A stretch of DNA of 64,000 bases from Thelephora terrestris (lineage: Eukaryota > Basidiomycota > Agaricomycetes > Thelephorales > Thelephoraceae), in the NCBI GenBank assembly GCA_015956445.1, contig WIUZ02000001.1, positions 620,001 to 684,000 on the forward strand, written 5' to 3'. The stretch's first letter is position 1, and each line of letters opens with the position of its first letter. The notes beneath the pieces were generated by a model. That model saw only the letters and a list, made by a program, of their open reading frames with translations, had not been told where the DNA came from and did not search any database. Both the position numbers and the translations under genes were made by a program. This document shows, piece by piece, positions 34,201-59,747 of this stretch.

Positions 34201-35471
34201 GAAGCGATGGGTTCTGCGGCACATATCCTCAACCGCGTCCCTCGAAGAGGTCTAGACTGGCGGACGCCTTACAAACTTATGTTCGGAAGGACTCCGAATG
34301 TTTCTCATTTCCGCACGTTCGGTTGTCGCGCCTGGGCTTACAACGAAGCAGCGAAGAAGTGGGATCCAAAGGCTCTGCCTATGGTATTCCTCGGTTACGA
34401 AGCAGGATCTAAGGCCTTCCGTTTATGGAATCCGGCATCCCGGAGAATCGTCGTCTCGGCTAACGTCAAGTTCGACGAATCGGAACTTCCGAATCAGCCT
34501 GCGATCCAGCCTCCTGCTCCCACTCCTCCTGTCCCAGCTCCAGCTCCCTCCAAACCCTCTCGTTCTCCTCCTGCCACTAAACCCGTTGCATCGTCGTCTA
34601 AGACAAAATTACCTCCTTCCACCGCCACCGTCCCTTGGAGTTTCTTCGACCCTCAAAGTTCTGATGGGGAAGAAGAGGATTCCGACTACGAATCTTCGGT
34701 TGATGACGATCGTCAAGGTAGAGATCAATCGACTCCACCCGCCGAATCACCGGCACCTCTGGCACGTACGCCACCCGACAACGGGACTCCCCCACGTCAA
34801 CCCTCTCCTCCCGCGGAAGCCTCGTCGGCGACCGCTCAACCTACTCCCCCTCCTCCTTCTCAGTCCAAGTCCAGTTCGGACGACTTCGATCCCGAAGATC
34901 TCGATCCACGGGACAGTGAAGCGTCAGGTTCCTCATCCGAGGACGATGACGATGACAACAAGGACAACTCCGCTACCGATGCGGTCAGATTCCTGACACC
35001 ACCGGATCAGTCTTCTCCCAATCCCTCGCAACCGGAGGTCGCACTGGAAGTTCCAGTCCCAACTGAGGAAGTAATCACTTCCAACGAAGGGCCAAGGCGA
35101 TCTGGGCGCGTTCGCACAACTCGCAACGCGTCTCCTCCAATCCCGACGGAATTAGAGCACGTCGCTTCAGAGGGAGACTTGACTGCGGCCGATATTGCTT
35201 ATCTCAGCATGGTTGAACTTTACACCCAGGCGTCTTCTGTGATGGAGCCAAGGAGTCATACCGAGGCGATGAAGTCCAAACAATCAGATCAGTGGAAGGC
35301 TGCCGAAGCGGAAGAGATCGCCTCACTCGAAGGCAGAGGAACATGGGAAGTGGTCCCTCGTCCCAAGAACACTAATGTTGTTAGTTGCAAGTGGGTTTAC
35401 CGAGCAAAGTATGGTGCTAACGGCGAAGTCACTCGCTATAAGGCCCGCTTGGTTGCTCGCGGTTTTACCCA
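31280..35471 (+). pseudogene. Copia gag-pol coding parts
   Basis: Parts in order are a gag start (MSDLAKQISSVPVLAGQANY, 31,280-31,520), a gap filled by an inserted foldback element, more gag, a CCHC zinc knuckle (CYTCGQPGHFRQDC, about 33,020-33,065), a retropepsin-like region (about 33,190-33,240), a GAG-pre-integrase HQRLGHANW segment (about 33,620), an integrase core (about 33,810-34,290), a long acidic Pro/Ser linker (about 34,490-35,110) and the beginning of reverse transcriptase (about 35,230-35,471). This order, with integrase before reverse transcriptase, defines the copia superfamily. The element is broken. Confidence 0.85.
31521..32473. mobile_element. CACTA-like foldback (MITE-type) element, 953 bp
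   Basis: This is a near-perfect palindrome. The left arm (31,521 to about 31,942) and the right arm (about 32,058-32,473) are reverse complements, with a loop of roughly 110 bp. The ends are CACTGGGGGCAAGGGG and its near complement, flanked by the 3-bp direct repeat TGA (31,518-31,520 and 32,474-32,476). Terminal CACTG and a 3-bp TSD fit the CACTA/EnSpm superfamily. The arms hold several imperfect repeats with CACAATGT and GTGCCCACTGGG motifs, like CACTA subterminal repeats. It has no coding capacity, so it must be mobilised in trans. It sits inside the copia gag part. The similar arms suggest a young insertion. Confidence 0.85.
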
Positions 35472-35489
35472 CATCAGCAAGACCGCAAT

Positions 35490-35847
35490 TTAATTTTTTG
35501 TCACTTTAATCACTCTTATTCTAGGAAAAGTGGAAAATAAGGAAAAACTCGCAACTTCTGTAAGCTATGTCCGTTGTTTATATAATTGGTGACCAGGAAG
35601 TTGCGAAACCGAAATAAAAGTCCAGAATAAGTTGGAATTTGAGTAACGATTGTGATGTGATATGATTATCATATTATTAGTAAGTGACCGAGAACAGTTA
35701 AGCTACGAGAGTTCCGTGATCGTGGTGAATGAGATTGAGTCCGGGATAAATACGAGGGTTCTGTGATTACTGTGAAAACTAATGAGTGGTGAGATGGAGA
35801 ATGGAGATCTGTGAGTGTAAGTTGGGTATATAGGGAAAACAGGGTAA
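35490..35847. other. AT-rich left subterminal region of Plavaka 1
   Basis: About 360 bp between the left terminal repeat and the 3' end of the DUF6532-like gene. It is AT-rich, with short related pieces (GAAAAACTCGCAACTTC and CAGGAAGTTGCGAAACC) in opposite orientation. No coding sequence is seen. Confidence 0.5.
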
Positions 35848-37570
35848 TCAATCATCGTGAGCGGGAGAGGGAGGGTCAGAAGGAGGAAGTGGTACGTGTT
35901 CGTCTGACTCCTCTGAGGCACCATTGCGCGTGGCCTCTTCCTTCAAAACACGTGTGGAGAAGGTGGCGAGCGAGATAAAGATGGAGTTCCACTGCTTTTC
36001 ACCGAGGTCTTTGACAATGTGACCCATGAACGTCACAGTGGATGGATCCCAATCATCAGCATTGAATTGCTGGCCAGAAAGAATGAAATCCCCGGTCTCG
36101 TGCATAAGGTATGCACGTTTAACCTATCAGAGTGAAAGTCATCAGAATGGTGATGTCAGTAAGGAGAGGTAGGACGTACAGCGGTGGTCGCGAGAGCAAG
36201 GACACCGATCGGCCGGCTTCCAACTCCTGGGTCTTCGAGCGGGGATGATTCCATAATCCCAGAGGAGGAGTAGTAAACACGCAAGGTTTCCAGGATAGGA
36301 TCCGACTGGAAAACACCACGCCTCGTCTGTGAAATCTTCAGAAGGGAATGGGGCGTAACGAAGGAGGTGACATACAGTTTTGTACCCTCCAATCTCAGGG
36401 TGGTTCTTGATATTACCTTCGGAGTACTCCCGCCATATGATTGGATGGTCATGCTTCGATTTGAAGAGGTCAGCAATGTATTTGGCCCTAGCCTCAATGG
36501 TATCGAGCTTCTTCTTGCGGAATACAGTGACAAGGTGTCGCTGAACGGCGGTGATAGCGGCAGAAGCAAGGTGGTTTCGGAGGACCCCGAGTGCTGAGAT
36601 GGTCTAGCATGCAAGTTAGCATTGTAAAAGATTCTTGGGCGTAGATCACTCACCGGGTGGAAAGCGGCGTCATTGTGCCTAATCTGTGCAGGGAACGCGG
36701 GGTAGGCGAGATCGTACAGTATCTGGAGAGCGTCTACATCTGGATTAACCCAGGGCGACTTCGAGTTAGCCACCTGTCTGATGACGAAGCGGATGAAGGT
36801 GTTGCGAAAGTCCTGAAAATGCCCAGGGAGGTCTTTGATTCCAGGGTATACTCTCGGTCCCTTCCCGTTGTTCTTCGGGAGAGCGAAGGTTGGGAGCAGA
36901 TTCTCCTCGAACTACACCATAGATGATTAGTTGGTGGTCAGGGTTAGTTCCGAAACAACTTACGTTGAATGAATTTCGAGACAGCACAGAGGCCGGTGAA
37001 GTTGAGGTTGCTGCAGAGAGCGGCGACATGGACTGAAGTGGAGTAGTGCCATGGGGCGACTGCATTCGTAACCTCCAGTCATCGAAAAGGCCGGTGGCAC
37101 GGGGATGAACCACCGACGAGGACTCGAATGGGTTGATTGCGCGTGATCGCTTCAACCTGATGGTAAACAGTCAGAACAAACATGAGACGTGAGCGATTGT
37201 ACAACGTACTTAGCCGTTGAGCCTATCGATCCCTTGGCCTTGCGTTTGGTACCCACAATGACAGCCTCTTCGGTATCGGTTGCAGGCTCAGTATCGCCAC
37301 CGGCTTCCAGTGACTCCTGGTCAGAACGGTTCTGGAAGTAAATCGTGGTCAGCGGAGCACGGTACAACCAAATTGGATAAGTACCAGTGCGACGAGCTCC
37401 TTAATGGAGCGAAGTTCCTCCTTCAGAGCTGCAATCTCTTGAGCTTTGGTGGGCTGCTTCGGTCGACGGGGTGTAGACGAAGCGTGAGAGAGACCGGCTG
37501 CCAGAAGTTGTGCCGGTGACATATCAGGAATCCCAGGGCGCGCAGACTTGTTCTTTCCACGAGTGACCAT
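35848..37570 (-). CDS. DUF6532-like protein, passenger of Plavaka 1
   Basis: This is a gene of seven exons or so with GT..AG introns of 50-60 nt that can be joined in frame. It starts MVTRGKNKSARPGIPDMSPAQ at 37,570. The N-terminal part is basic with a short coiled-coil-like stretch (KAQEIAALKEELRSIKELVAL). The middle is low-complexity Ser/Pro. The C-terminal half (VNPDVDALQILYDLAYPAFPAQIRHNDAAFHP, TISALGVLRNHLASAAI, RPIGVLALATTAVKRAYLMHETGD, then TVTFMGHIVKDLGEKQW) has the pattern of the fungal DUF6532 family, whose function is unknown. It is placed head to head with the Plavaka transposase, about 475 bp apart, inside the same terminal repeats. I infer that it is a passenger or accessory gene of the transposon. 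Confidence 0.6.
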
Positions 37571-38045
37571 TGGATGTATGAAAAGAGTGGCTGAGGGTAA
37601 AGGAGTGACAAATAAGATATGAGACTGGGGCAATTGGAACATGCCTGAGCCATCTTTATATCCTCTGAAGGCGACAGAACGTGGTCCGTGTCGGTGATCA
37701 TGGTCGTGTTTCGAAGTGCACGAAGCGAAGGCCAAGGTATGGTCCGAGGGTGAAGGTTGGGCGCAAGAGCAAAGAAATGCTCGAACGTATCGGCTGTCTG
37801 ACAGCCCCACCAGAGGCGAGAGAAGGATCATAGGAAGAGGTGGATGATTGTTGGATGGAAGTTGCACGAGGAAAGCTGCGGACTCCCATGCGGCTTCGAG
37901 TTCGATTGGTACGCGCCAGCCGCCCAATCGAGCAAAGTCTGAATCCTGACCCACCTCTGTCAAGGGGTTATCGATGGCCCGCAGTCCCTCTATAAAACGG
38001 GTCCCCACCCCCCAATGTCGTCTCAGTCAGCAACATCTATATCCT

Positions 38046-41000
38046 ATGGTCTCATTCCAGTGCCCCCAGTGTGACCGAAGGTGTAAAAGCCTCAGCGGAT
38101 TGACACGTCATCAAGACTCTGTTCATCGAAACGACCCTGGGCTGAACATCCCTGTCACCGAGCTCCGAAAAATCTACCACCCGAACCTGACTGGTACGTA
38201 CAAGTCCCTACTGTGGCATCACATTGTACTGATTTCTTCGAAGGCCTGCGCTGTGATCGACACGGACAATTCCTCCCCCCAAACACCCCTCCGGAACCAC
38301 AAACTGCAAAAGCGAACGACGATTGGTCGCCGTTCGCATCGCGCGCTGGTTTCGAACTCGCGGAGTTCCTGTTTACCGAGGCAGAGCTTTCCCAGAAAAA
38401 AATTGACAAGTTACTCGAACTTTGGGTCGCAACACTTCTTCCTCATGGCAGCTCTCCGCCCATCACCACCCATCAACAACTGCACCAGCAAATCGACGCC
38501 GTAGAGCTTGGCAACCTCCGCTGGGAAAACACTTCCCTCGGGTATGATGGCCCCCTCCCGGAAACCACTCGTGTTCCGGAGTGGATGACCGCAAAGTACG
38601 ATGTTTGGTATCGTGACCCACGTGAGGTGGTCAAGAACATGCTATCAAACACAGACTTCAACGGCCACATGGACTACACAGCATACCAAGAATTCAACAG
38701 CGAGAAACGTCAGTACGGCAACATGATGTCTGGCGATTGGTCGTGGCAGGCAGTCGGTACGTATTTTGAGCTTAGCGTCTCATCTGCTTTTACTGACCCT
38801 CGCCTAATAGGATGATATTGCTCAAGACCCGTCAACGCATGGCTCTATGTTTGTGCCAATCATCCTGGGATCCGACAAAACAACGGTCTCTGTCGCTACC
38901 GGCCAGAACGATTTTCACCCGGTCTACTTTTCGATCGGCAACATTCAAAACCATATCCGACGTGCACACAAGAATGGCTTAGTCCTACTTGGGTTCCTCC
39001 CAATTCCCAAAGGTTTGTTGTCCTCACTGTTACTCCTGGCTGGCAACGTCTCAACTGTCTGTAATAGGCGCCAAAAAAGACACTGACACAGAAGAATTCA
39101 GAAACTTCCGCAGGGACTTGACACATAGGTCAATTGCTACGATGCTCCTCCGACTAAAACCCTTCATGACAAACCCCGACATCATTCAATGTCCCGACCG
39201 ATACTTCCGTCGCGTGATCTATGGTCTTGGACCGCATATTTCCGACTACCCTGAACAGGCAGCTCTGGGTTGGATTCTCTATGGCTGGTGTCCAACGTAA
39301 GTACAATGCGCACACTACACATGCCTCACGCTCAATTTGTTTCAAGTTGTTTGGCCCACCCAGATTCTCTCGACACTCCATGCCCCCACCGGTCTGCGGT
39401 CCACACCGATGTTCTGCTCGGTTTGCACGATGACGAGACCTTGCGAAGGTTGTATGGCATTGTGCCAGGTGCTATGGTATGTTTGTCTGCATTCTCTGTC
39501 GCGCAAAATTAACGTAGAATCCTTGTTAGCCATACACAGGATATTTTCCGAGGGCCGATATATATGAAAACATCACACCTGACCTATTGCATCAACTGAT
39601 CAAGGGGGTCTACAAAGATCACCTCGTTGAATGGGTGGGCAAATTACTTGAGCACGTTCATGGCATTGCGGGTGGTGCACGGGCAATTGATGAAATCGAT
39701 CGCCGGTGAGTGGTTCATGATCTATCACACCATTCCCTCTATCTCATCACACGAAACAGGATTGCACTTGCACCTCCATACCCTGGGCTCCGAAGGTTCA
39801 AGCAAGGCAGAGGTTTCAGTCAATGGACCGGGGATGATTCAAAGGCGCTCATGAAGGTATGCGGTGAATTTATCTTTTTGTCCAACCTCTACTAATGTGT
39901 CCTGTCAAAGGTCTATCTGAATGCAATCCAGGCCTTTGTACCACCCGAGGTCGTCAAGACAGTTTCTGCATTTCTCGAGTTTTGCTACATTGCTCGCCGA
40001 AATATCATCACCGAAGATTCACTCGAACAACTCAACATCGCATTGCACAACTTCCACCAGTCACGTCAAATATTCTCAGGGACAGTTCGAGGAGAGGGCC
40101 TATCTGGATTTTCACTTCCCCGGCAGCACGCTATGGTCCACTACTATGATCACATAAAGAATTTCGGCTCTCCTAACGGCCTCTGTTCTTCGATCACGGA
40201 GTCGAAGCACATCGCTGCAGTGAAACGCCCATGGCGCCGGTCGAACAAGCACGCACCCCTCCAACAAATGCTCAGGACAAATGAACGCCTTGACAAGATT
40301 GCTGCTGCGCGAGTCGACTTTACGGCACGTGGCATGTTGGCGGATTCGTGCCTTGTCCAGGTTATCAGGGATATCCTCGGCAGTAGTGAAGACTCTATGG
40401 ATGAAGATAGCAGCGACTCTGAAACGGACAGCGACAGTTACGAGGAGGATGGCCTGGATGGAGAAAACCCCCCTAGCAACAGCAACAACACTGACCACGA
40501 CACTGATGGTAGCCGTGACAGCGACAACAACGACAACGACAACGACCACAGCGATGACCACCACGACAATGATGACGATGACCACGGGCCCGTTGAATCA
40601 GGACCTCTCATGAATGAGGTGCGCTTCGTGGGTAGGAAAGGTAAGGACCCCTCACCACCATCAATTCACAAACTCAGATATAACCCACAGCGGCCAGGAA
40701 AGATTATCCTCCATCGCTCCGTGCCATCGGTCTCAAGATCGGTCAACACAATCTCCTCGATCTCACTCGCCGGTTCCTCCACTATCAACTCAACCCTACA
40801 TCCACCATTGAACCCAACCACCTGACTCTTGCTGAATGCCCGATGATCCAGGAGTCAAGGGTATCCATCTACCACTCTGCTGCGGCAATGTTTCGTGCGC
40901 CGAGCAATCCATCGGGTCCCGGAGGGATGTATCGAGAGGTTATCCGCTCAACTCCTTTTTGGCCAAGAGGCGACATCCCTGGACCACGCAGAGATTGTGT

Positions 41001-41373
41001 ATTTGTTGACATGGGAGACTCAGGGAGTGTGGGAATGAAGGGGCTTCTTGTTGCGCGTGTCTACCTCTTTTTCAGGTTCTCCCATAGCGGCGTCGACTAC
41101 CCTTGTGCCCTTGTGCATTGGTTCACGACGAGCGATGAACCTGACCCTGACACTAACCTATGGATTGTCCAGCCAGAGACCATTCGCCACGGAGTGCGCC
41201 ACATGGGCGTCATCCACATTGACTCTATTGTTCGCGGTGCACACCTACTTCCAAGGTTTCCGTCGGACGCACCCGTCTACCGTGAAATCAATTACACAAA
41301 TGTCCTGGATCTATTTTCCTCGTTCTACGTCAACAAGTACATCGATCACCACGCGTTCGAAATCGCTTTTTGA
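38046..41373 (+). CDS. Plavaka transposase 1, apparently intact
   Basis: This is a multi-exon gene starting MVSFQCPQCDRRCKSLSGLTRHQDSVH, a C2H2 zinc finger as is usual for Plavaka transposases. It contains family landmarks in order: EWMTAKYDVWYRDPREVVKNML, NMMSGDWSWQAV, MFVPIILGSDKTTVSVATG, HPVYFSIGNIQNHIRRAHKNGLVLLGFLPIPK, NITPDLLHQLIKGVYKDHLVEWV, SSITESKHIAAVKRPWRRS and a C-terminal ALVHW..IHIDSIVRGAHL..NKYIDHHAFEIAF. An acidic stretch (Asp/Asn/His, about 40,390-40,590) precedes the C-terminal domain. All exons found can be joined in frame, giving roughly 950 residues. It acts on the transposon ends in the nucleus. I see no inactivating change. Confidence 0.8.
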
Positions 41374-41571
41374 CATACTTCTATCACATGTCGGAAATAG
41401 CTTCTTGATGTACTTCTATCACACGTTTGAAATAGCCTTGTTTTGAAATCACATTACTCGTGTCATGAATATAAGTTGAAGAAAACCCGGGCCCATCGGT
41501 TACAAATAAAGCACAGGTAAGTCGAGAAAAGTGAATAAGTTGAAATAATCTATTTGCCATCTTGCTGATGT

Positions 41572-43774
41572 AAGACAAAGAAGGGAGGTGCAGTTCTCCT
41601 CGGTCAAATCCCCGAGGTACGTGCAACCATTTTTAGCATGACGATAAGCTAACCATTATTTCTAGGTCCTTGGACAATCAACAGACTCTGACGCAGCTCT
41701 CGCTGACCATCGCGCTAGGGTCTTCCACGCAACATTACTGAAGATCCTTGAGTCAGTGATACATGCCGCCGGGGAAGGTGGATTCACGTTCGACGATGGT
41801 CTACATCGTCGGCTTGCCCAACTGATTATTGCGATACTTTCGGGTGACTATGAGGAATAGTAAGCTCTTTGCAACATGCCATATCTTGTTCCTTAAACAT
41901 CTGTTCAGTACAAGGTTCGCTTTGATCCTCGGAGCACAGTCAGAGTTCAAGTGCCCGATATGTCTCGTACCAGCTAATGCGCTCTCGGACTTATGTGGGG
42001 ATTCATATCCAAAACGCTCACGAAACTCAGCCCTTGCACTGATTGCGAACGCTAATGAGCAGACGTCTGCAAGTGCGGCAAAGAGAGCACTTGGCGCTCA
42101 GTCAATTCGACGGATTTCGGTGGGCGGTTTGATCCTCCCAAAATTCACGATGCTAATATCCGTACATAGAATACATTCCTTGATTACTTCAGCCTTTACA
42201 TGCCTCTGTATGACATGTTTTGTGCCGACCCCCTACATCAGATTGAACAAGGAGTGTGGGGAAAGCATTTCTGGCTTTGGTTCAAGACCTACTACCTTAT
42301 GAAGGGTGAGCTGGATGAAGTTGACAACAGGTCAGCCAGTCTTCACTCGCCAAACATGGATTCATAAATATCATTGTATAGCTTTGTGGCCGTACCGCCC
42401 ATCTCAAGGCTGCATCATTTTCCGAACGGCGTCTGTAGACTCAAGTATATTACGGCTCGGGAGCAGGGCGTCATCCTACGTGTATGTTATTCCCAACGTC
42501 AGCGCTTGATCATCCGGGTTTATCAATCACGAGACCAGTATCTCTCGCCACTTGCACATAGGGTTTGCCAATCAGAGCGAAATCAGGACACACTCATTAT
42601 TCCAGCCATCCGACATCTCGCCTGTCTCCTCCTCCTTTCTCGATTTCATGCCCATACCACCTCGACGTTGTCTCTCTTGCAGGGACATGTCAGCAAGTTC
42701 GGGCAACTCACAAAGGTAATAAGGTCTAACAATAATGACATGTAGCCTTTCTCACGTCTCAAGGTTATCCGTGACTCTCCTGAGCTTTTCGATCACCATG
42801 AGGAGCTCTCGTTCTCGTGGCCGAAAATGCACTCGATCACGCACCTCATTGATTGCATTCGGGCAAAGGGTGTTGTGATGAACTATTCATCAGACTCTGG
42901 TGAGGCGTTGCATCCTCAAAGTCACAAGGACTGGGGCCGAACAAACCAGCAATTATCTGCTGCGGACCAGGCAGGTAGACACGTTCTACCCCTCAACGCT
43001 TCTGACACCCTTTTAGATGCTTCGAATGGCCTTCGAACGAGAGATGATAATGAACATCCGTTATCGGGTCAATGCCTTTGATGAACAATGCTTATTCAAT
43101 GGAAACTTGGACGAGGATACCGACGCCATTGCCCACCGCTCGCACGTTCAACTCGGGTCACTTGACGGCGTCATACACCTTTCTTCATATGCTAAAAAAC
43201 TTGGCAAAGACATTTGTCTGCAGGATTTCCAGAAAATCCTCACAATGTTCCTATACCTCAACCGCATTCTCAATGACAAAGCCAGTGAGATCTCTGGCTC
43301 CAGGGTATGTGCGGTATATATTCAACGATTTGCACGCTCATGTTCACACAGGTGGTCCCCTGTCACGTGTTGCGGGTTACGTATGACTGCCAGGAGACAG
43401 CAACAAAGAAGACAGACCTCCTACACGTCGCAACCTCTTGGCGTGGATCAGGGGCACGTTACGACCACGCTATTCTACAAGGCTCTGGGCGATCGGGACT
43501 GAACTTCTGTCAAGTTTGTGCCGTGTTCATGATATTGGTCGAACGCGAGTGGTACCGCTTGGCGGTCGTCCGGATCTACAAACAAAACCGACGGAACAAG
43601 GTGACAGAGCACATTGAGCTCACAGCTCCAAAAGACGGGTGTTTTGATGTGTGTTTTGTCGATAGCATTGTTCGCGTTGCACACATCCTCGCACCAACTT
43701 GCCACAGCCCATATTCAGTAGTTCAAGACCTATACGACGGTGATACATATTTACGACTCCATAACATCCAATAG
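41572..43774 (+). pseudogene. Plavaka-type transposase 2, C-terminal fragment
   Basis: This fragment belongs to a different branch of the same transposase group. Pieces in order are HRARVFHATLLKILESVIHAAGEGGFTFDDGL, TRFALILGAQSEFKCPICLVP, YDMFCADPLHQIEQGVWGKHFWLWF, ISRLHHFPNGVCRLKYITAREQGVIL, then EALHPQSHKDWGRTN and a C-terminal FVDSIVRVAHILAPTCH. The N-terminal half, including any zinc finger, is missing because the right end of Plavaka 1 lies directly before it. Some exon joins are unclear. It is probably a dead remnant. Confidence 0.6.
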
Positions 43775-43796
43775 CAACCGTGTTTAAAATGTATTC

Positions 43797-45290
43797 CTAC
43801 CCCTCTGAGCCGTTAGCAGATTGGGACGGAGATGTCACCACGTCTGCACGTCCCTTCCCCTTTGTCCGGTGAGCCTTCTTCTCCTCGACATCAGCATAAA
43901 ATTTGTTCATATACTCCTTTTGTGACTGCTCGTTTGGGTCACCCATCTCCTCTTCGTCCTGGCCGAACACGTTGGCATCCATAAATTCCTTCCAAGAATT
44001 GTAGATATCGGGGAGATCAATGTGCAGTCTTTCGAGTTGCAACATTTGGTCCCGATAGAACTTCTTATAACCTTCCTTAGCGCCCTTGTCGTGGAACACA
44101 CTGCCGTCAATGAGGAGGAACCACAGCTGCACTATGGATCAGCTGTGCGCAATAAATGTTGCATTTTTCACTGACCACTGTAGCGATGAAAGCAGCAAGT
44201 GTCTTCCTAACAGTTCTGACATTGAAGAGCACAGCACGGATGCTTCGCGATTTTTGCCGATCGGGACCATCGAGTGCTGCCGGACCGAACAAAATGACAC
44301 GAAGGGCCTGCCAAATGGTTCAAAGTCACCGTGTTCAATAAGCAAGGAACTTTCCTTAACCATGCAATCGCTCCTCATGAATTCTTCAATCGATCCAACA
44401 TTGCCGTGTCCGTAGAGGAATTTGTAGTTCAGGCGGAGTGCGGCAACTTGCGCGCTCTGGTCACGTTCGTCGATTGTAACGATATCGGTGATGGAAAAGA
44501 TGCGGATCGCGTGTGCGTGAAGTGTCGAGACTACCTCATTGCGAAAGCGCCTGAGTCCTAGCCGAAACTTGGAAGTGTGAGAGAAGTCGACTCGAGATAA
44601 ATGAGAACCATACCGGAGAGCAAAACAACGGACTCCGCCACTCCTCTTCCGGGAGGCGAAAGCGTGCAAAGGTAAGCTGGAGCATCAGAAGCGGACTAAC
44701 ATTTGTGTCTCGCTGTGTCTCCATGGGGAGGAGTTCATAAGTCTCCAGCTCCTTCAGCTCAAAATCCTCAACCCATGCTGCATAGTGATGTGCAAACCAC
44801 TTGCCCAACCAGATGGCACGCTCTTCGCACTCCATCTCCTTGATGGCATCCGGGTCAGAACATTCCTGGTCTTCAAGGTGCAGCTCATGACCCCCCGCAT
44901 AGCGCGGATCAGTCAGTTGCCCACTTTCAGGGTCATATTCGGCCTCCGGTGGCTCTCCCAGGACCTCGGGATGAGGGAAAGGTAGGAGCTTCCTGCCGTG
45001 GCGGGAGGGAACGGGCCTGCGGGTCTGCTGGGGTTGTACAGCCGAAGCGGCGGGCGTCGTTTGGGTGTGGGAATTGGGGTGGAGGGAGGGTTTTGTCTGG
45101 CTGAGGGTGTTGGGAGGGCTCTGGTTTTGAAGAGAACGACACGCACCGGTTGTGGCACTTTTTTTCGCTTGATCCCTGCCGCTGCATCCCGAAGACCATC
45201 CCGGAGAAGCTGCGATCGGGTTTGTAAGTAAAAACCCGCGCCGAGTCTGATTTTACGTACTCGTTGCTTTGCCAGCTTTTTCCAGTTAGG
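43797..45290 (-). CDS. Unrecognised protein, convergent with Plavaka fragment 2
   Basis: This is a minus-strand multi-exon gene model beginning MPNWKKLAKQRV at 45,290. A Pro/Gln-rich N-terminal part is followed by EAEYDPESGQLTDPRYAGGHELHLEDQE, then EERAIWLGKWFAHHYAAWVEDFELKELETYELLP, a central part with IRIFSITDIVTIDERDQSAQVAALRLNYKFLYGHG, and a C-terminal FYRDQMLQLERLHIDLPDIYNSWKEFMD. The end is low-complexity and basic. I recognise no domain. It ends 20 bp from the stop of the transposase fragment, tail to tail. Together with its location among transposons this suggests a passenger gene of the element that transposase 2 came from. Confidence 0.5.
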
Positions 45291-46132
45291 CATTTGGCAT
45301 TGCTTCGATGAGACAGCGAGTGGGAGAGGGTTACTTGCCGAAGACTTGAGACAAGGACTCGAGATGTCCAGGTATTTTGTTGTCCATTATTTGTACACGG
45401 GGTTTATAAGTCTCCTCCTCGAGATCGGAGGGCAGGACCCTTCTTTCGTCTCATCCGCCACCATCTCCGGTGAGTCGGTTCTGCCAGCCAATGATAAATC
45501 GCCCTAAACCCCCGGTTTCAGCCGATGTGGAGTGGAGTGCAACGGTGGGTCTTTACCGTTCATTAGATCATCTCATTCGGCTGACTACCTACGTCACAGG
45601 GGTTTGGACCGGTGGATCGGTTCGTGTCTGTTTGCATTCAAACAGTTCGGCACGTCGCGCTAACTTCTCTTCCTGTCTAGGCGAAACTACACGGCCGGTC
45701 ATATTCTATTTTACCTTTGCATGTAGTCTGTATGTTTGGGCCCGAAACCCCGCGGGAGGAAAGTGCTGAGCGCGGGACGAGGACTATTGTGTGAATTTAA
45801 TTATGAGAAATCATTGTGAGCCCCTAGTGGCAAATTAATGGATCGATTTCTTGAGCTGCTCGTGACGGACCAGAAGGCCCGGGAAACCCCCGTTTTTTTT
45901 TTCCTTTTTGGCTCCTCGGCTTAGAGTTATGTGGACGCGCCCCCAAGCGACTTTCAGGGGCTACAAGCGCGTCCAATTTGGATGCACGCGTGCATGAGCA
46001 CACAAGATCGGCCTTCGCTTGTGGCGCTTGTATGCGCATGTATATCGACGCCGGTTTTCCTGATGCTTCCCAATAATTCATCCAGGATCGTGCCTTTTGC
46101 ATTCACGACTTCTATGCGATCGACTGACCCTT
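45291..46132. other. Gap between transposon genes, possible old terminus
   Basis: No gene is recognised. At 46,051-46,065 the sequence CCGGTTTTCCTGATG, followed by CTT, resembles the right end of Plavaka 3 (CGATTTTGCTGATG followed by CTT). Upstream, 45,930-46,040 has repeated GCGCTTGT-type motifs on both strands. This could be the right end of the element that carried transposase 2, but no left partner was found. Confidence 0.35.
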
Positions 46133-46204
46133 CATCAGCAAAATCGCCTCGGCGTCTACTCGGGTACCGTCGGGTACCGTCGGGTGCCAGCTCTGTGAGA
46201 CTGG

Positions 46205-46352
46205 TTTTGAGACGAATGCAGGCGATCGCATACCTTTTGAGACGAATGCAGGCGATCGCGTATTTTTGAGATGGATGCAGGCGATCGCGTACTTTTGAGA
46301 TGAATGCAGGCGGTCGCGTACTTTTGAGACAGATGCAAGCAATTGTGTACTT
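46205..46352 (+). repeat. 29-bp tandem repeats, left subterminal array
   Basis: About five imperfect copies of a 29-bp unit that contains TTTGAGACGAATGCAGG and ends GCGATCGCGTACT. Just outside, at 46,158-46,186, CGGGTACCGT is repeated. Such arrays near transposon ends usually serve as transposase binding sites. Confidence 0.75.
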
Positions 46353-46509
46353 TTAAGAATGCAGTTCAAGAACTCGTAGCGCCTCACATCTCCCGTCTCC
46401 CACGACCACCACCATTCCTTGTGAGCGCGAAAATGTTTTGCAGTTTAATCACACCACCATCTCAAGAAAGCCGGAATCGTGTATTGTTGTGGAGAGTGCA
46501 AAGTCGTGA

Positions 46510-49500
46510 CTAGATAACTAGACTATCTCTAAAATAGAAATAATCCTCCTTGTCAAAATAATGGTTGAGGTAGAAGTCTCGAGAGGCGTCAAAACTTGTT
46601 TGTGAAGTGAGAGTGGGGTCCGCTTTCTCCCCAAACTTAGGGACCAGCTGAACAGGTTGACGAAGATGATATAAAGGGACGACAGCGCCCATTGGAGATC
46701 CATCACTCCTGCATGCTCGGCGTAGGACATACATTCCCCAAATAAGGTCGGGGGCCAACCTTTGGCCTCAAGGGAGATCGGTTTGAGGGATGATGTCAAA
46801 GCGTTTGACATAGGCGAGATAGAGCGGCAGCTTTGTTTGGAGGTCCCAGAGAGGGTGGAAGATCGTGCGGATCTGACCTACAAAGAATCCTAGCTATGAG
46901 ATCAGCACCACTCTGGCTGGTTATACCGGGGATGCTTACCATTTAATCCGGGGGGAGGCTGCGGCGGCCCAGCGGTGGCGTCTTGCGAAAATATCGCTGT
47001 ATCGCACCGTCCGTTTGGCCAATCTTCACCTGGTGGTATGGCGAACAATTTCTGCGGAGGTGCGACACCAGGCGAAAGCTGACTGTAAGTCTGTACGCGA
47101 ACAGAATGCCATACCCGGACTTCTTTGAAGGGTATGGCGATGTCCCAGGCGGTGCCACGCCTTCCAGCGATTGTGCGAGTGTTCTGGTCGTGGAAAAAGT
47201 GGGAGAAGAAGTCATGTGTCGCTTGAAGGAGATCAGGGATGTCGTATTGAATGGAGACCTGATCCAGCGTCGAGCGCGAAAGGTGTGCACGGTTATTCAT
47301 GTGGAACGCGGTTGTAGGGGTGGCAAACGTTCGCGGAAAGGGGGGGAGGTTGTGCTGGGATTGTGTGTCGGCTGCAAATGCGAAGAGATCAGTAATTGTC
47401 CTAGGTGGATCAAAAGCCTCGGCGATATCAGGGAAGTCGGTTTTCCAGTCGCTGTCGTCATCAACCGGGTTGAAAACCGAATCGGGGTCGTCTACTCCAT
47501 TCGCCGTGCCAGGCCCTGCAGAAATTGCCTCTTCGAGCCTAGTCGCGAGGTCGAAGTACCGGCACTTTTCCTGACGATCGAGGTTCCGGCAGATCTGCGG
47601 GGGATAGTCGCGGCCGTTGGTGTTCTCACGGGGCATTTTGATGAAGACAATATGCAGGCGTTCCGTGGTATCGGCTGACCACTGAGGGAGAGTTCCTGAC
47701 CATTGAATGCACGACGCGATGGATTGGAGCAGTTCGAGCTTCGGGATCTGGAAGTGATCCATAGGCCCCCCTTTGCCAACGCGGAGACCGAGGTCGATGA
47801 TGACCTGCTTGTAGGTGTGGAATAGTTGTAATGCGTCAGAGATGGCGTGGAGGTCGCGTTGGGTTACTTGTTGGAGTTGGGAAAGGTAGCGCAGGTCGAG
47901 GAGAGCACGAATGCAGAGGACAAACCTCTCATCGGTATCGGTGGGAATCAGCGCGAGGAGGTACCTTTGGATGTCCCGGTGTTCGCGGCCAGTGACTTGC
48001 TTCAGTGATGAGATTCCGGAGGAGAAGTGCCGGTAGCCGTTGCGCGACTGGACGAGTGAAAAACGGAGGTCCAGTTCGAGGTCCCCAACAGCTCGGATGA
48101 CCCATTTCACATCGTGATCCCAAAATGACTTGTGAAGGTGATGGAGAATTTCGATGGGGAAGATTTGATGCGGGTTGGGGAGGGTTCCGTCGGGGAGGTA
48201 CCAGTCGCGCCAAAATGGGAGATTGACTCCGTTCAAGCGAAACAAGGCCTTCGCGTTGCTGGTGTAAATGTGCACCTGAGATGGGTCGAACTGGGAGGCA
48301 AGGGTTTTGAGTGATGTGAGGATGCTCTCGGCGGTTCGGGGTTGATGTTGAATAGGATCGCCGAATTCCCTAAACGTAGCCATCGTTAGGTGAGACGTCT
48401 TCCCGGCGACACCAGTGAGCGCTGTTGCTTCTGGGGTATCGACGATGTAAGCGACCAATGGTGTGAAACAGTAGCGTATGTTGCCGGCATAGTCAGAGAC
48501 CCAGGCCCCGTGTTGTGATGCGATCTTGAGGGGGTGCGTGATAAAGTCGAGACACGAGTGTGCCAGCCGGTTTTCGAGAACTCCCTGGATATTTTTCTTG
48601 ACGCCGACGAATTTTGGGACAGGAAACAATGCCAGTAACGAAAAGGCGTGTGAGGAGGTTGATGACCGGACGGAAGAATCAATGTTTGCAAGTGTGATAA
48701 GTAGAGGATGAGCGATGCGATCTCCGGTCATGGCGCTGAGCCTGGTCTTGTCCGATGATAAGGTGACACCGAGGAGAGTAGCATGTGATGGAAGGCGGCT
48801 CTGGAACCATCTAAATGAGGCAGGCTTGCGATGAAGTACATAAAGATACGTACCTGATAGTCCCATGCCCCATCACTCGTAATCCAATCCCCATACGTAC
48901 GATTACCGTACGAATCAAAGTCTTGGCGAGGCTGGTATTGAATCTTCCCGGAAAAGAGGGGGTTCTTCATGATGAATTCGATGCAATTCATTGGGTCCCG
49001 GTAATATAGCACGAGGGGGTCCTTGGTGGCGTATCCAGGCAGCGAGACCACTGTAGACTTCCATGGCGGCCCACTTGGGAGGAGTTCGACCTTCCCCCGG
49101 AGGGTTCGCGCACAATGGAAAGAAAGACCAAGGCCGGCAATCTGGAACATTGTTAGCAATGCCATGCAGCTGGAAAAGAGAGAAAAGATGCACCAGACCG
49201 AGTGATAAGAACTCATCAATCAGCTTCATCGATAACCCGCTACGCATGAAAAACCCAGCAATCTCCCATTCACCTTTGGAGAGGAACGGGTAGTATGGAT
49301 GGCTGGATCGACGGTCGGAATCTTCATCGTTGTGAAACCAGCCCAGGAATCCTGGGCCCGAGTCGAACACATGGCCGGCATTGGGGAAGTGGTAGGAGCG
49401 TGGGGAAGGGTGGGTTTCTGGCGGAGATTGAGGGCGAGGGGGAGACTGCTCGGGAACACGGGCAAACCAGAGGTGACAAGAGGAGAAACGGTGGTTCATG

Positions 49501-49565
49501 TGCTTGAGAACGGCAGAGCTGTCCTTGAAGGTAGAGTGGCAGTTGGGGCAGGCGGCAGGTGGCAT
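46510..49565 (-). pseudogene. Plavaka transposase 3, with one in-frame stop
   Basis: It starts MPPAACPNCHSTFKDSSAVLKHMNHRFSSC at 49,565, a C2H2 finger. Landmarks are YYRDPMNCIEFIMKNPLF, TYGDWITSDGAWDYQ, LLGVTLSSDKTRLSAMTGDRIAHPLLITLANI, FVGVKKNIQGVLENRLAHSCLDF, VSDYAGNIRYCFTPLVAYIVDTPEATALTGV, EILHHLHKSFWDHDVKW, and a C-terminal MYVLRRACRSDGSPMGAVVPLYHLRQPVQLVPKFGEKADP. Introns are short. Between QIRTIFHPLWDLQTKLPLYLAYVKRFD and the last block the frame meets a TGA (46,768-46,770), where family members read on. That change, if real, removes about the last 85 residues. Otherwise the frame is long and open, so inactivation looks recent. Confidence 0.7.
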
Positions 49566-49650
49566 GATCGTTAAATTTTGAAACGTCGAAGGCCTGAAGG
49601 CTCAAATGGTGGGTGTTTCCGGCAACTTCCACGACCACTTACGCTCTCCT

Positions 49651-50188
49651 ATGTCACAACCCACTGAACAAGAGCCCCTCACCCGCTTTACTGAGCTCAT
49701 GAATGAGCTATTACCGGTAAGCCGTCGTTCATTTCTATCCATTCATAGTTTATTTATTTTATTTTTGTCAGAAGTACGAGGGTTCTGGGGATCCAGAACC
49801 CCCCACTGAGGCTCGTCAGAAGTTACTGCGCGACATCCGCGCTGCTCGCGACATCTACGCACAAGACAGGACCAGGGCCGAAAACCAACTTCTGGCCGCT
49901 CAACAACTCGTCAATGCCTTAGCAAGACAACTTCGACTTGCCGATGAAAAGTTGATTTCTCTTGAAGACCTGATTGCGGAGGTGAGGGTCAGGATGCGAA
50001 CACGTGGTCTTTCAACACTCCCCCAACGGTCACCCTCCAACCGTTTCGCCGTTGTCGGCAACAAGGGTCAAATCGACTGCTCACCAGCGTGTAAGTCGCA
50101 CGTTTCTGAAACCATTGATGAATGGACCCTGACATATTACCTCACAGTGTTGCAGCCTGTGTCGCAGCCTGGGGAACAGGGTCATTAG
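49651..50188 (+). CDS. Small coiled-coil protein in Plavaka 3
   Basis: Starts MSQPTEQEPLTRFTELMNELLP at 49,651, only 86 bp from the divergent transposase start. After one intron (about 55 nt) it continues KYEGSGDPEPPTEARQKLLRDIRAARDIYAQDRTRAENQLLAAQQLVNALARQLRLADEKLISLEDLIAEV, a helical region with heptad-like spacing typical of a coiled coil, and ends near 50,188. A total of about 130-160 residues is expected, depending on a second intron. No family is recognised. The DUF6532-like gene in Plavaka 1 also has a short coiled-coil stretch near its start, so this may be a split-off counterpart of that N-terminal part. This is inference. Confidence 0.5.
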
Positions 50189-50322
50189 GTGTAATACGGC
50201 GTGCTGCTTCCACCCTTCCAATTACCTACAATGATGTACTTTCGTATATAAGCCCTACCGTATACATCTCTTCCCCCTTTGCCGCTCTCGTCCGTCCTCT
50301 TCGTTTTTTTATTATCTAAGTG

Positions 50323-52414
50323 ATGGCAGGTCCTGGGAAGGCGCGCGGTGGAAGAGCAGCCAGCAACTCTGCTCGTTCCACCAGACCCCAACCCACTCCC
50401 GTCACTTCTGGTCACCCACCTGCTTCCAACCACAATTCCTCGCGCACCACTCGTGCCACCACTGCTCGCAAGAGACAGGGCGCCGACGACGAAGAGCCTC
50501 TCCCTCCAAAACCAGCTAAAAACCCCCGAAAAGTCCGTTATTTTTTTTAATGTGTGCTAGAGGCCTCCCTAATCGCTCGGCCAGAATGCAGAAACTGTTG
50601 ATACCGCTCCTTTGATTTCTAACGCGGCTCCCAGCCATAATACGACCAATTCCCCTGCTACATATCTCTCTTCTGGATTGTCTTCAGGTCACGGCGCTTT
50701 CCCCGCTCACACTAATGTCCATATCGATTCGTCTAGACTTCTTGCTCAACCTGGTTTCCCGGCGTCGCATCATCTTCAAGTTCCTGGCCAATACCCTCAG
50801 CACATGCTTGGTCCATCCCCTGCAACGTCGCACCACCTTTCTGGCCTATCCCCGGTAATGTCGCATCACCATCCTGGTCCGCAGTTGGCAACTTCATATC
50901 ACCTTCCTGGCCAGTCTCACACCCAATATGCCTATCCTCAACACTGGTCTGGCGCACAATCCGGTCCCCACCCCACGGTCCTGTCCCCTCATCCCCCTCA
51001 ACCTCCGCCATACCAATCTCCACCACCCGATGTCGTCGTCATCGATAACGACTTTTCCGACGGCGAAGATTCCGAAGTGGAGTTTGCAGAGCGTTTTTGC
51101 GGCGAAGTGGAAGAGTCCTCCGGTGTCCAGGTAAGTAGAATCCACACATGAGAGCACCCTGCTTACACCCCCTGCAGTTCCTTCCTTCGCAGGATGTCCT
51201 CCACGACCACTGGCAGAGGAACGGTCAGCCAGTCCCTCCTCGATTGGCCCCTCGCAACGTCCACGCACAGTTCAACGAACCGGCCCGCGGTCACCAGCCA
51301 GCCCCTCCAGCCCTGGTACCACCCCCTTCCCAGCCAGCCCCCGTCCGGCAGATGCCTGTGGCGCCAATCATCCCAGCTGTTGTCGAGGAACCCTACCAAG
51401 AACCACGTCCCCTGACCCTCCCAACACCCAACCCTGATGATCCTCCCCTTCCGCGCAGCTGGTACCCGAAGCCTTGGCAACAGCTCATCGACCACGCTCA
51501 AGGTTACACGCTCCATTACATGGCCTTCTTTGATCCCTTCCCCAACGGCACGTCCAGCCATATCCGGGCCCGCGAGGATATCACCATGGCATTCAGCACG
51601 TACAACATGGTCTACGATGATCTTCTCGATGTGACCTCCTGTAAGTCGTACCCCCACAACTGCCAAGATCTCCTCTCACCCCATTCTAGTCAACGAGCAC
51701 CGGCAGAATTTTGCAACCCTGGTACGCCCACCCCCTCCACACTCACCCCCTCACTCACTATCCCTATTAGGCCATGAAGGGCGCACGGAGCCATCGAGGA
51801 AGATACCGAACGGCTGTTCTGAAGGCGCTCTATGATACGAAAGAATTCGGCCTTACCCAAAAGACCCCCGCCGCGAGTATCGTGAATCGAGTCGAATCAC
51901 TATTGCACGACAACTGCTACCTCGATGTCACATTTCCCGTGAGTTTGGGCAACCGTTTTGTTGCCATGTCAATCTAAGACATTCACAGAGCCCCTGTTCG
52001 CGTACACCCGGCTCTTCAATGTACAAGTCCCCCATCTTGAAGAAGGCGATTCTTATCCTCTACACCACCGAACCGTGGCGCACGGCTATTTCTCAACCGT
52101 GGCTCGTGGACGTTGAAGATTACGATGGAGCCTTCAGGGCCTTCCCTCTAGTCGGGTTTGTCGCCTTTGCAGCCTGCGCAGTAAGTGAAACTGCTTTCTT
52201 GTCGTGCACGACTGATCCCCATGATTTCTAGTTCCGCAATATACTCGACTCTCTTGTTTCTGGTATGGAGGAGAACATCCCGTTCAGCGAAGCCGGTTAT
52301 TCACCCACCTACGAATTCCTTGTTGACCTGGTCAAATTTGATTTGGACGAGCCCGACACCGGGTTGCTCGTTGGCTACAACCTGCAGGCTATCATAGCGG
52401 GTGTTACCATCTGA
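50323..52414 (+). CDS. DUF6532-like protein, passenger of Plavaka 3
   Basis: Starts MAGPGKARGGRAASNSARSTRP at 50,323. The N-terminal half is basic and rich in Pro, His, Ser and Gln with an acidic patch (DNDFSDGEDSEVEFAERF). The C-terminal half reads YPKPWQQLIDHAQGYTLHYMAFFDPFP, AMKGARSHRGRYRTAVLKALYDTKEFGL, SSMYKSPILKKAILILYTTEPWRT and AFPLVGFVAFAACAFRNILDSLVSGMEE, and ends GYNLQAIIAGVTI at 52,414. The spacing of these blocks fits the fungal DUF6532 pattern. About seven exons with short introns join in frame. It is on the opposite strand from the Plavaka transposase, as in Plavaka 1, inside the same terminal repeats. The function is unknown; a role in transposition or silencing evasion would be a guess. 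Confidence 0.55.
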
Positions 52415-52986
52415 TCTTCCGTGCCCCGTCCATCCTGTGTTTCGTGCTTGCTTGTCCTCCATCCGTCCCGTGTTCCGTTCTTGCTTGTCCCCCGTCTCGT
52501 TTTCGTTTGCCCTGAGGGCCCTTTTGTCACGAGTATTACTTTGTTTACCAAGTTATACTTGTTTTTGATCAATACACTGGTTTGTTCCCTAAGTACTGGT
52601 AGTGATATGATCTCGTGGGCACCCTCGAAGATCACGCCCAGTGAAAAACCGGTCGAACCCGGGCGAACCCGTTCGAATTTGATCGGGTAGTTGACCGGAT
52701 TGGATAACATTCGTCCTGGCTCGCGCAAACGGCACATTACTTAGATTCGGTCCATTAGTTTCTAATCGTAGCAATGTTTAATGGTCTCATTTGTACGGTT
52801 AGATTTGAATAGATTATAGTAGATCAAAATAGATCTTGCATTCACACCGGGATCTAGCGAGAGCGAACAATATCTATTCGGATCTAAAGACGGTGATGTT
52901 CAATGCGGGTCTACTGATATCTAATTTCCTTCCGTCCCCATACCACACCCTACCCACTTCCTCTCGAGACGGACACAACGACACAT

Positions 52987-55447: not shown

Positions 55448-55651
55448 TCTGGCAGAAGATGGTGGTAGGAAGAGAAGCTGAGAAAAGAGAAAAGAAAAAA
55501 GAAAAAAGAGGGCAAACGGACACAGAAACTCGGAGGTCGATCGGGCTTATCTGATCTAGCCAGGGCGAAGTGTGTCGACTCCGATCAAAATACCGGATTG
55601 TTCCCTAGTACATCGAAATATTTTATTACAGGCTCGCACTCTTTTTCTACT

Positions 55652-58600: not shown

Positions 58601-59133
58601 AGGTCTTCTTCCATTCTGTCAGTAACCGGGGAAGGAGGACGAAGGAGCTGTTGGTCGGTATCCCTGTTCTCGTGATTTGAGGCGGCAGGGGGGGAGGTTT
58701 CTTCGGATTGGAATCTATCTGTGGGACGTGTAGACGGGGGCAGTTCTGGGGTCGTCTCACGTCTCCCAGCAATATCTGCATCCCCTGGGACGCACTGAGA
58801 ATATGATTGCATGAATATCGGACGCATATATTGATCTGATATTATACGTACAGAGCTCGATCCCGCCGTAACTCGACTGGATATATGCGCCCGCATGTGC
58901 GCAAGCTCTTCTCCATAACGCTTCTTAACCTTTCTAGTGAGCTTAGGGGCGGGGAGATTTATCATATGGTCGATCTCCTCCAGCGAAAGGTTTGGAAGTT
59001 TCGCTTTTTTTCCTCCCGGGTTGTGGTTATACCATGTCCTTCTGGCAAGGTATTTTCCGCCGTGGAGTGCGCACTTTGCGCATTTACAGTGCAACTTCGA
59101 GGGGTCCCCATCTTCGCCCAACGGGAGGGACAT
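55652..59133 (-). CDS. Tnp2-family transposase
   Basis: There are two exons. The main one (55,993-59,133) starts MSLPLGEDGDPSKLHCKCAKCALHGGKYLARRTWYNHNPGG, with a Cys-rich start usual in basidiomycete Tnp2 proteins. An acidic, Pro-rich region follows. Then come CxxxxCPRPRCLEPRYD, the transposase core with VVMLSIDGAQLYRNKKSDCWIYIWLILDLAPDQRYK, PGGVIPGPGHPKSLDSFLFPGLAHL, KEGLRVYDS, and LADAIAMAKLSGSVGHHGKRGCRLLCEF, and later DIMHQPVINLTALMFDLW. After an intron of about 60 nt the last exon adds IFYQGAIRIAEARYYFRADVAG and SLYSPADERL, ending at 55,652. This C-terminal block is typical of fungal Tnp2 proteins. No stop or frameshift is seen, so it may be functional, acting on the CCCAGTG ends of its own element. 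Confidence 0.85.
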
Positions 59134-59485
59134 TCGAGGAACGGAGTTGGCGATATGCTCCCGGGAGATATGGGAGGCTTGGAGCGAAGGAGGGACTTAG
59201 AAATTTTCGAAAAAAAATCATCTCAATTCACGCCAAATATTCAGATAACACGAAGATATATTCTAAGTCTACAAACTGAATTGAAGAAGCTTGAAGAAGT
59301 TGAACTTCGCGCGATCTAATTAAATCCACGCGACTTCGGATAGACCCGAATTGCATGGCCTAGATCCCGGTTGCCACATTTCGTGCCGGTTTGCCAGCGT
59401 TCAATCCGGCTCGTTCCCATTCGCGCGATTTTTCACTGGGGATCACGAGCGACCGACAATTGTGCTGCCATCATATTTCGCGTAC

Positions 59486-59640
59486 CAGAACTACCATCGC
59501 GTGCCACATCGACCATCGTGTACCGCTTCGACCATCGTGTACCACATCAACCATCGCGTACCACATTGACCATCGCGTACCACATCAACCATCGCGTACC
59601 ACATCAACAATCGCGTACCGCCGTCAACCACTGCGTACCA
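59486..59640 (+). repeat. 19-bp tandem repeats, right subterminal array
   Basis: About eight imperfect copies of GCGTACCACATCAACCATC, followed by CGGGTACC-type repeats (59,650-59,712) near the terminal inverted repeat. The array at the other end has a different unit, but both contain TCGCGTAC. Confidence 0.8.
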
Positions 59641-59747
59641 CCGTCAACCGCCGCATACCACCGGGTACCATGAAGGTACCCGAATCAGCCGGGTACCCCC
59701 GGGTACCCCCGGGTGTCATCGCGTACTGACTGACGATTTTGCTGATG

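Follow-up and report, generated by a model that had tools for sequence, protein, structure and literature searches.

DUF6532-type genes as probable element-encoded partners of Plavaka transposases in the fungus Thelephora terrestris

According to passages of PMC2613891, the maize Spm element depends both on its transposase, TNPD, and on TNPA, a DNA-binding protein that recognises subterminal repeats. The same passages conclude that transposases are conserved among CACTA elements, with little resemblance between the binding proteins or between the motifs of these (PMC2613891). The Plavaka group of fungal transposons goes back to Iyer et al. (2014), as cited in a passage of PMC8290104. A paper on its PlavakaB lineage names, in the passages available, TET/JBP as an extra gene of some Plavaka elements; searches of its main text revealed neither DUF6532 nor a divergent partner of Plavaka (PMC12730594). 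DUF6532 (PF20149) is named in Pfam as a family of unknown function, and literature searches, covering open-licence papers by passages, found no paper that functionally links it to Plavaka. The present analysis deals with two Plavaka elements, Plavaka 1 and Plavaka 3, of a stretch of 64,000 nucleotides from Thelephora terrestris (C1:620001-684000, hereafter the window) and with the genes that stand divergent to their transposase genes: gene A, DUF6532-like, in Plavaka 1, and gene B, a DUF6532 gene, with the small gene C in Plavaka 3 (Table 1). The 40.6-Mb genome in 60 contigs to which the window belongs is the sole fungal genome examined, and the gene models were read by hand from splice sites in the sequence.

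DUF6532 proteins are almost certainly element-encoded partners of the Plavaka transposase. With a probability of about 0.6, DUF6532-type genes would be the standard second gene of Plavaka elements and their products would have a TnpA-like accessory role. The elements of the window have in common with the PlavakaB lineage the PF18759 domain, 5'-CATCA..TGATG-3' ends and target duplications of 2-3 bp (passages of PMC12730594). They resemble the CACTA/En-Spm elements, as described for maize Spm and soybean Tgmt* in passages of PMC2613891, in combining a conserved transposase with a faster-evolving second protein and, in Plavaka 3, in subterminal repeats; a 3-bp duplication is given for Tgmt*. However, the Spm proteins derive from alternatively spliced transcripts, whereas those of Plavaka are encoded by separate, divergent genes (PMC2613891). 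An accessory gene apart from that of the transposase is also present in the Harbinger/Nuwa DNA transposons, where it encodes a Myb/SANT protein (passages of PMC12730594); in contrast, their transposase is of another lineage, and the DUF6532-type proteins have no Myb/SANT match in Pfam. Finally, the Arabidopsis VANDAL elements encode an extra protein, VANC, and have rapidly diverging noncoding repeats (abstract of PMC10398659), but they are a different kind of element.

Searching the genome with PF20149 gave 33 exon matches at E values up to 10, clustered into 29 loci; 22 of the 33 score above the Pfam gathering cut-off of 24 bits, two of them only when combined with neighbours. With the gene A protein, 106 exon matches were obtained, again forming 29 loci, at sites distinct from the PF20149 set. 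For the transposase, PF18759 yielded at least 132 exon matches at no fewer than 70 loci, a lower bound since 123 of 261 candidates were scored. A Plavaka transposase lies within 20 kb of 24 of the 29 PF20149 loci, and all 24 pairs are divergent (16/21 loci above the Pfam cut-off, 8/8 below it). For the gene A family, a divergent Plavaka is likewise found within 20 kb at 24/29 loci, the nearest Plavaka being a tandem neighbour in one case. The conservation of the head-to-head pair, put forward in the original prediction from the window alone, is thus borne out by the count in this one genome. When loci were placed at random on the same contigs (3,000 rounds; the lengths of C7 and C9 are lower bounds), a mean of 2.7 (PF20149) and 2.5 (gene A family) fell within 20 kb of a Plavaka in any orientation, with maxima of 9 and 11; divergent placements reached at most 5 and 6. 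Among control families of the same genome, Copia RVT_2 genes have a divergent Plavaka within this distance at 3/92 loci and KDZ genes at 1/58 (8/92 and 3/58 in any orientation; 58 of 125 KDZ rows were entered, the weaker exon rows being left out). None of the 29 DUF6532 loci lies near KDZ. It should be added that these locus counts overstate the number of independent cases, because copies with identical scores on different contigs (C12/C48, C3/C36 and C12/C45, among others) may be haplotype duplicates.

Seen from the other side, 48 of the 70 Plavaka loci have a detected partner. This is an undercount, since single-exon detection misses the three copies of Plavaka 3, which hold gene B with exons that score too low singly. 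Moreover, some DUF6532 genes that appear to be orphans belong to elements. The one at C12:3407896 lies in a Plavaka that an internal deletion has reduced to 2.2 kb, in which the tail of the transposase and both ends are present, together with a TA duplication, and near C4:926272 a left end is identical to that of the element at C12:987059, with a different flank.

Both genes lie inside recognisable ends of the CATCAGCA type in ten element copies: two copies of Plavaka 1, three of Plavaka 3 (those outside the window, 97% identical, at C23:1213876 and C59:397777), two older relatives of Plavaka 3 with CATCAGCAAAATCG ends (C10:464356-479437 and C3:3821-16325), and three copies of a third family, the C9 type, with ends CATCAGCAAAACCGATCG (C9, C59 and C13). 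The ends of Plavaka 1 and Plavaka 3 are inverted and of the CATCAGCA type; the claim that related terminal repeats enclose both pairs thus holds, but the right end of Plavaka 3 does not lie within the interval first described. It is found at 59747 and not near 52414, because a tnp2 element is inserted at 52636/52637. Over some 6.9 kb, the three C9-type copies are given as 100% identical, which shows a recent move of the whole cassette. Duplications of 2-3 bp were read in the copies' own flanks at 8 of 11 bounded copies, a chance match of 2 bp being expected once in 16. They are CTT (window), TC (C59) and TA (C23) for Plavaka 3, TT for the C10 and TG for the C3 relative, GAG and AC for the C9-type copies at C59 and C13, and TA for the deletion derivative on C12. 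Among these 11 copies, the one at C9 has no duplication and the two of Plavaka 1 have one only crosswise. At the DUF6532 elements of C45, C60, C18 and C8 (45-52 kb), no CATCA..TGATG ends or terminal inverted repeats were found in the stretches examined. The DUF6532 and transposase genes transpose together and co-occur across strongly diverged families.

Purifying selection is seen in both partner families tested, those of gene A and gene B. For the gene A family, the ratio of nonsynonymous to synonymous divergence (dN/dS, Nei-Gojobori) is 0.10-0.18 in 10 of 15 pairs, rough values, since dS is saturated in five pairs and high (1.6-3.0) in the remainder. For gene B, it amounts to 0.17 against the C10 relative, to 0.13, 0.40 and 0.25 among the three 97% copies and to 0.40 between C10 and C3; for the transposase, the comparison with C10 gives 0.07 and those between the three Plavaka 3 copies 0.07-0.16. 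At a similar dS in the comparison with C10 (1.34 for gene B, 0.98 for the transposase), dN of gene B is about threefold higher (0.225 versus 0.069), the pattern given in passages of PMC2613891 for CACTA transposases and TnpA-like proteins. Distances between partners and between transposases rise together, with r = 0.69 for six gene A elements, a fit reached in 49 of 720 permutations, and r = 0.98 for five DUF6532 elements, reached in 10 of 120, which in samples of this size is only suggestive. That the partner works with the transposase, as proposed at the outset, has thereby gained indirect support, from purifying selection, parallel divergence (in small samples) and joint transposition.

Several steps may be envisaged for such a cooperation. 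The cassette consists of CATCAGCA-type ends, with the transposase gene running one way, the DUF6532 gene the other way and, in one clade, gene C between them. The DUF6532 protein would recognise the fast-changing subterminal sequences of its own element; it might then pair the two ends or load the transposase onto them, and could perhaps also regulate the region between both genes, while the coiled-coil protein may hold the complex together. In Plavaka 3, the GTACGCGAT core, with one mismatch allowed, has four occurrences in the left and nine in the right 350 bp, compared with two in the intervening 6,111 bp; the C10 and C3 relatives retain 2+4 cores. Such subterminal arrays are the sort of sequence to which TnpA binds. 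The arrays are clear in these three elements, none of 500 shuffles reaching them.

The position of gene A within this scheme depends on its relation to DUF6532. In the window, no DUF6532 match appears in the raw, unspliced open reading frames; it is seen only after splicing. Both genes had been proposed to encode DUF6532 proteins. A profile search bears this out for gene B (48.5 bits, E = 1.3e-12, residues 363-570, profile positions 7-190 of 194) but not for gene A, which reaches 16.7 bits (E = 0.0068, profile positions 57-188) where the cut-off is 24. It may therefore be imagined that the two genes are unrelated and that two different accessory genes occupy the same slot, gene B alone being DUF6532. 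Profile-profile comparisons are compatible with this idea, as they are weak, with small alignments (P = 0.005 and probability 7% for the gene A family against the DUF6532 family; P = 0.024 and 2% against gene B). However, PF20149 recognises 9 of the 11 spliced gene A family members at E values of 1 or less (best 1.5e-4), compared with 1 of 11 in each of four other families, and the aligned motifs run in the same order (RRGxFQS..RPxGALALAAAAVERAY and PYQHP..VALATT). These results make unrelatedness improbable. Gene A is likely, though not proven, to be a distant DUF6532-like relative; it is not a member of DUF6532 by the Pfam rule, and its family, as far as scored, also stays under the cut-off. 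Pattern searches of viral contigs gave 94 and 61 matches, but tblastn revealed no relative of either family there.

Other origins of the pairing, and other functions, have to be considered. A mere clustering artefact, in which transposon-rich regions juxtapose unrelated elements, might be suspected from the nested elements of the window itself (Copia, Plavaka and the tnp2 element). Nevertheless, Copia and KDZ genes of the same genome lack such an association, and the ten copies in which a single pair of ends encloses both genes refute this explanation, which hardly merits any weight. It could also be argued that the partner is a passenger, or a host gene repeatedly captured by Plavaka, with no role in transposition. 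Two relatives of gene A with long frames and no nearby transposase, at C23:1932706 and C5:737140 (385 and 392 amino acids, with one stop in the C5 match), would fit this idea; they could be deleted elements or domesticated genes. The single orientation in all 24 PF20149 pairs, the purifying selection and the divergence in parallel with the transposase render the passenger hypothesis very improbable. More serious is a function in anti-silencing. In such a model, DUF6532 would bind the noncoding repeats of its own element and remove silent chromatin, as VANC does, thus serving expression rather than the chemistry of cut-and-paste transposition. VANC-target regions lie in noncoding parts of the element and form tandem repeats that diverge rapidly (abstract of PMC10398659), which the Plavaka 3 arrays resemble, and TET dioxygenases on other transposons, including some Plavaka, are thought to serve anti-silencing (passages of PMC12730594). 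A Tet_JBP search gave no match in the present genome and is uninformative, as its controls were equally silent. On the other hand, a gene that stands beside the transposase in at least 48 of 70 Plavaka loci would seem to serve a core function rather than an optional one, and anti-silencing appears rather unlikely.

Several observations also weigh against a TnpA-like accessory role as the general function of DUF6532-type genes in Plavaka. The motif of the C9 type is different, weaker and partly the terminal repeat itself (2/500 shuffles), and Plavaka 1 has no significant subterminal motif (76/500 shuffles), which speaks against a uniform repeat rule across Plavaka. The transposase might bind the repeats alone, as that of Plavaka 3 has a possible N-terminal C2H2 finger (zf-C2H2, 15.9 bits, below the cut-off). 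Pfam recognises no DNA-binding domain in DUF6532-type proteins, and the comparison with solved structures gave no convincing relative of the gene A or DUF6532 families, a single weak hit having E = 0.043 and a domain i-Evalue of 10. The partner in the C9 family scores 14.3 bits against PF20149, its link to DUF6532 passing through a 69% DNA match to a gene at C23:1610046 (29.9 bits). Besides the small samples behind the co-divergence, some close pairs are less constrained, gene B reaching 0.40 in the window-C59 as well as the C10-C3 comparison, and a stop interrupts the C59 copy. Finally, no partner was detected at 22 of the 70 Plavaka loci, which include the three Plavaka 3 copies discussed above. 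PF20149 loci C1:1345647, C58:738120 and C60:1133884 have no known Plavaka context, the first two having stops in the match, and five gene A family loci lack a nearby divergent transposase (C12:961454, C23:1932706, C5:737140, C56:1941113 and C59:1531836). The value of about 0.6 given to the TnpA-like role, and the modest share left to a VANC-like one, reflect the mixed repeat evidence and the possible finger of the transposase.

With element-encoded partnership as the starting point, the DUF6532 family gains a first functional context, and an accessory-protein system is added to a little-studied group of fungal transposons. Annotators should check DUF6532 genes for a transposon origin. It is tempting to go further and to imagine, as a tentative extension that falls somewhat short of an even chance, that the whole DUF6532 family consists of transposon proteins, that Plavaka elements are two- or three-part machines, made up of the transposase, DUF6532 as end-binder and, in one clade, the coiled-coil protein as linker, with an undescribed DNA-recognition fold, and that many genes annotated in mushrooms as host 'DUF6532' belong to mobile elements or are domesticated remnants of such genes. 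A Ganoderma survey counts both PF18759 and PF20149 as additional domains in G. boninense and G. leucocontextum (passages of PMC8955403); this co-listing is compatible with a wider link between DUF6532 and Plavaka but is no proof of it.

Gene C was found at 14 loci, the genome search having given 19 exon matches with an E limit of 0.1. At 13 of them it is divergent to a Plavaka transposase (14 kb apart on C5), the exception being C56:2465452, and at all eight loci with a detected DUF6532 gene it stands between this gene and the transposase. The aligned stretch of its first exon measures 66 nucleotides in Plavaka 3 and likewise in C3, C10, C15 and C16. Towards the C-terminus, a conserved DLI..[VI]R.R[ML]R stretch is seen; the C9-family version is much weaker. 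Taken together, the loci, the placement and the conservation of gene C indicate that one Plavaka clade has a three-gene cassette.

Table 1. Positions, within the window, of Plavaka 1, Plavaka 3 and the transposon nested in the latter
Feature	Position	Strand	Remarks
Plavaka 1	35472..41570	+	6.1-kb element holding both genes; CATCA..TGATG ends; 99% copy at C12:3189388-3195485 with identical end bases
Plavaka 1, left terminal inverted repeat	35472..35485	+	CATCAGCAAGACCG
Gene A, DUF6532-like, 469 amino acids	35848..37570	-	Seven exons: 37385-37570, 37210-37331, 36964-37156, 36654-36911, 36376-36603, 36180-36326, 35848-36123; hand model, all GT-AG
Plavaka 1 transposase	38046..41370	+	ATG 38046; 3' limit by eye; several exons, core only modelled: 38327-38752, 38811-39012, 39080-39297
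Plavaka 1, right terminal inverted repeat	41557..41570	-	CATCAGCAAGATGG, inverted; 12/14 alike with left
Plavaka 3, left part (left end to nested insertion)	46133..52636	+	97% copies at C23 (L040) and C59 (L041)
Plavaka 3, left terminal inverted repeat	46133..46146	+	CATCAGCAAAATCG
Plavaka 3, left subterminal 29-bp repeats	46205..46349	-	GTACGCGAT-like cores at 46225, 46255, 46284, 46313
Plavaka 3 transposase	46902..49565	-	ATG 49565; two reading frames, join left unmodelled; PF18759 192.5 bits
Gene C, small coiled-coil protein	49651..50188	+	Coiled coil by eye; 3' end uncertain
Gene B, DUF6532, 597 amino acids	50323..52414	+	Seven exons: 50323-50532, 50585-51130, 51178-51640, 51690-51721, 51771-51938, 51989-52180, 52232-52414
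Nested transposon, 6.8 kb	52637-59440		tnp2 transposase (PF02992, 4.4e-9); ends CCCAGTGAAAAA
Plavaka 3, right end, past nested insertion	59441..59747	+	Continuation of L040/L041 matches at 80% and 90%, stops at TGCTGATG 59747; flanking CTT duplication
Plavaka 3, right subterminal repeats	59477..59726	-	Eight cores at 19-bp spacing and one near the end
Plavaka 3, right terminal inverted repeat	59734..59747	-	CATCAGCAAAATCG, same 14 bases

The divergent layouts first read from the window were recovered in both elements. In Plavaka 1, gene A (minus strand) and the transposase gene (plus strand) have 475 bp between their start codons. In Plavaka 3, the transposase gene on the minus strand faces genes C and B on the plus strand, with 85 bp between the start codons of the transposase and gene C. 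The model of gene A is consistent with a splice-aware alignment seeded with its protein, in which the same protein was recovered for the tested part and exon lengths are equal or nearly equal in close relatives. An inverted repeat, 35471-35499 / 41543-41571, was read at the ends of Plavaka 1, and PF18759 matches its transposase at 38468-39297 in the genome search, with 97.3 bits for the reading frame 38087-38812.

The flanks of the two Plavaka 1 copies (window 35430-35472 and 41570-41640; C12:3187888-3196985) are crossed. A Copia reading frame that breaks off at the left end in the window is taken up again, with a CCA duplication, where the C12 copy has its right end, and the two remaining flanks pair through TA. 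This may reflect either an exchange between the two copies, that is a translocation, or an assembly switch. Between Plavaka 1 and Plavaka 3 (window 41571-46132), there are remains resembling a degraded Plavaka, with a sub-threshold PF18759 match at 41826-42299 (0.027) and, by eye, a C-terminal-like stretch at 43289-43774 that has no Pfam match. As for the C9 type, matches of about 100 bp to its left end alone occur at C3:336459, C60:1158155, C59:928185 and other sites; they are possibly non-autonomous derivatives or ends of unlisted elements.

The frame of the Plavaka 3 transposase at 46902-48872 ends with DUF6830 (PF20722, 106.8 bits, 1e-30). In this genome, DUF6830 therefore likewise has the appearance of a transposon domain. 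The tnp2 element nested in Plavaka 3 has a second reading frame of 459 amino acids (53664-55043) with no Pfam match above the cut-off. In CACTA-type elements, a duplication of 3 bp is usual; the nested element is flanked by one of 7 bp, GATCACG, which is long for this type.

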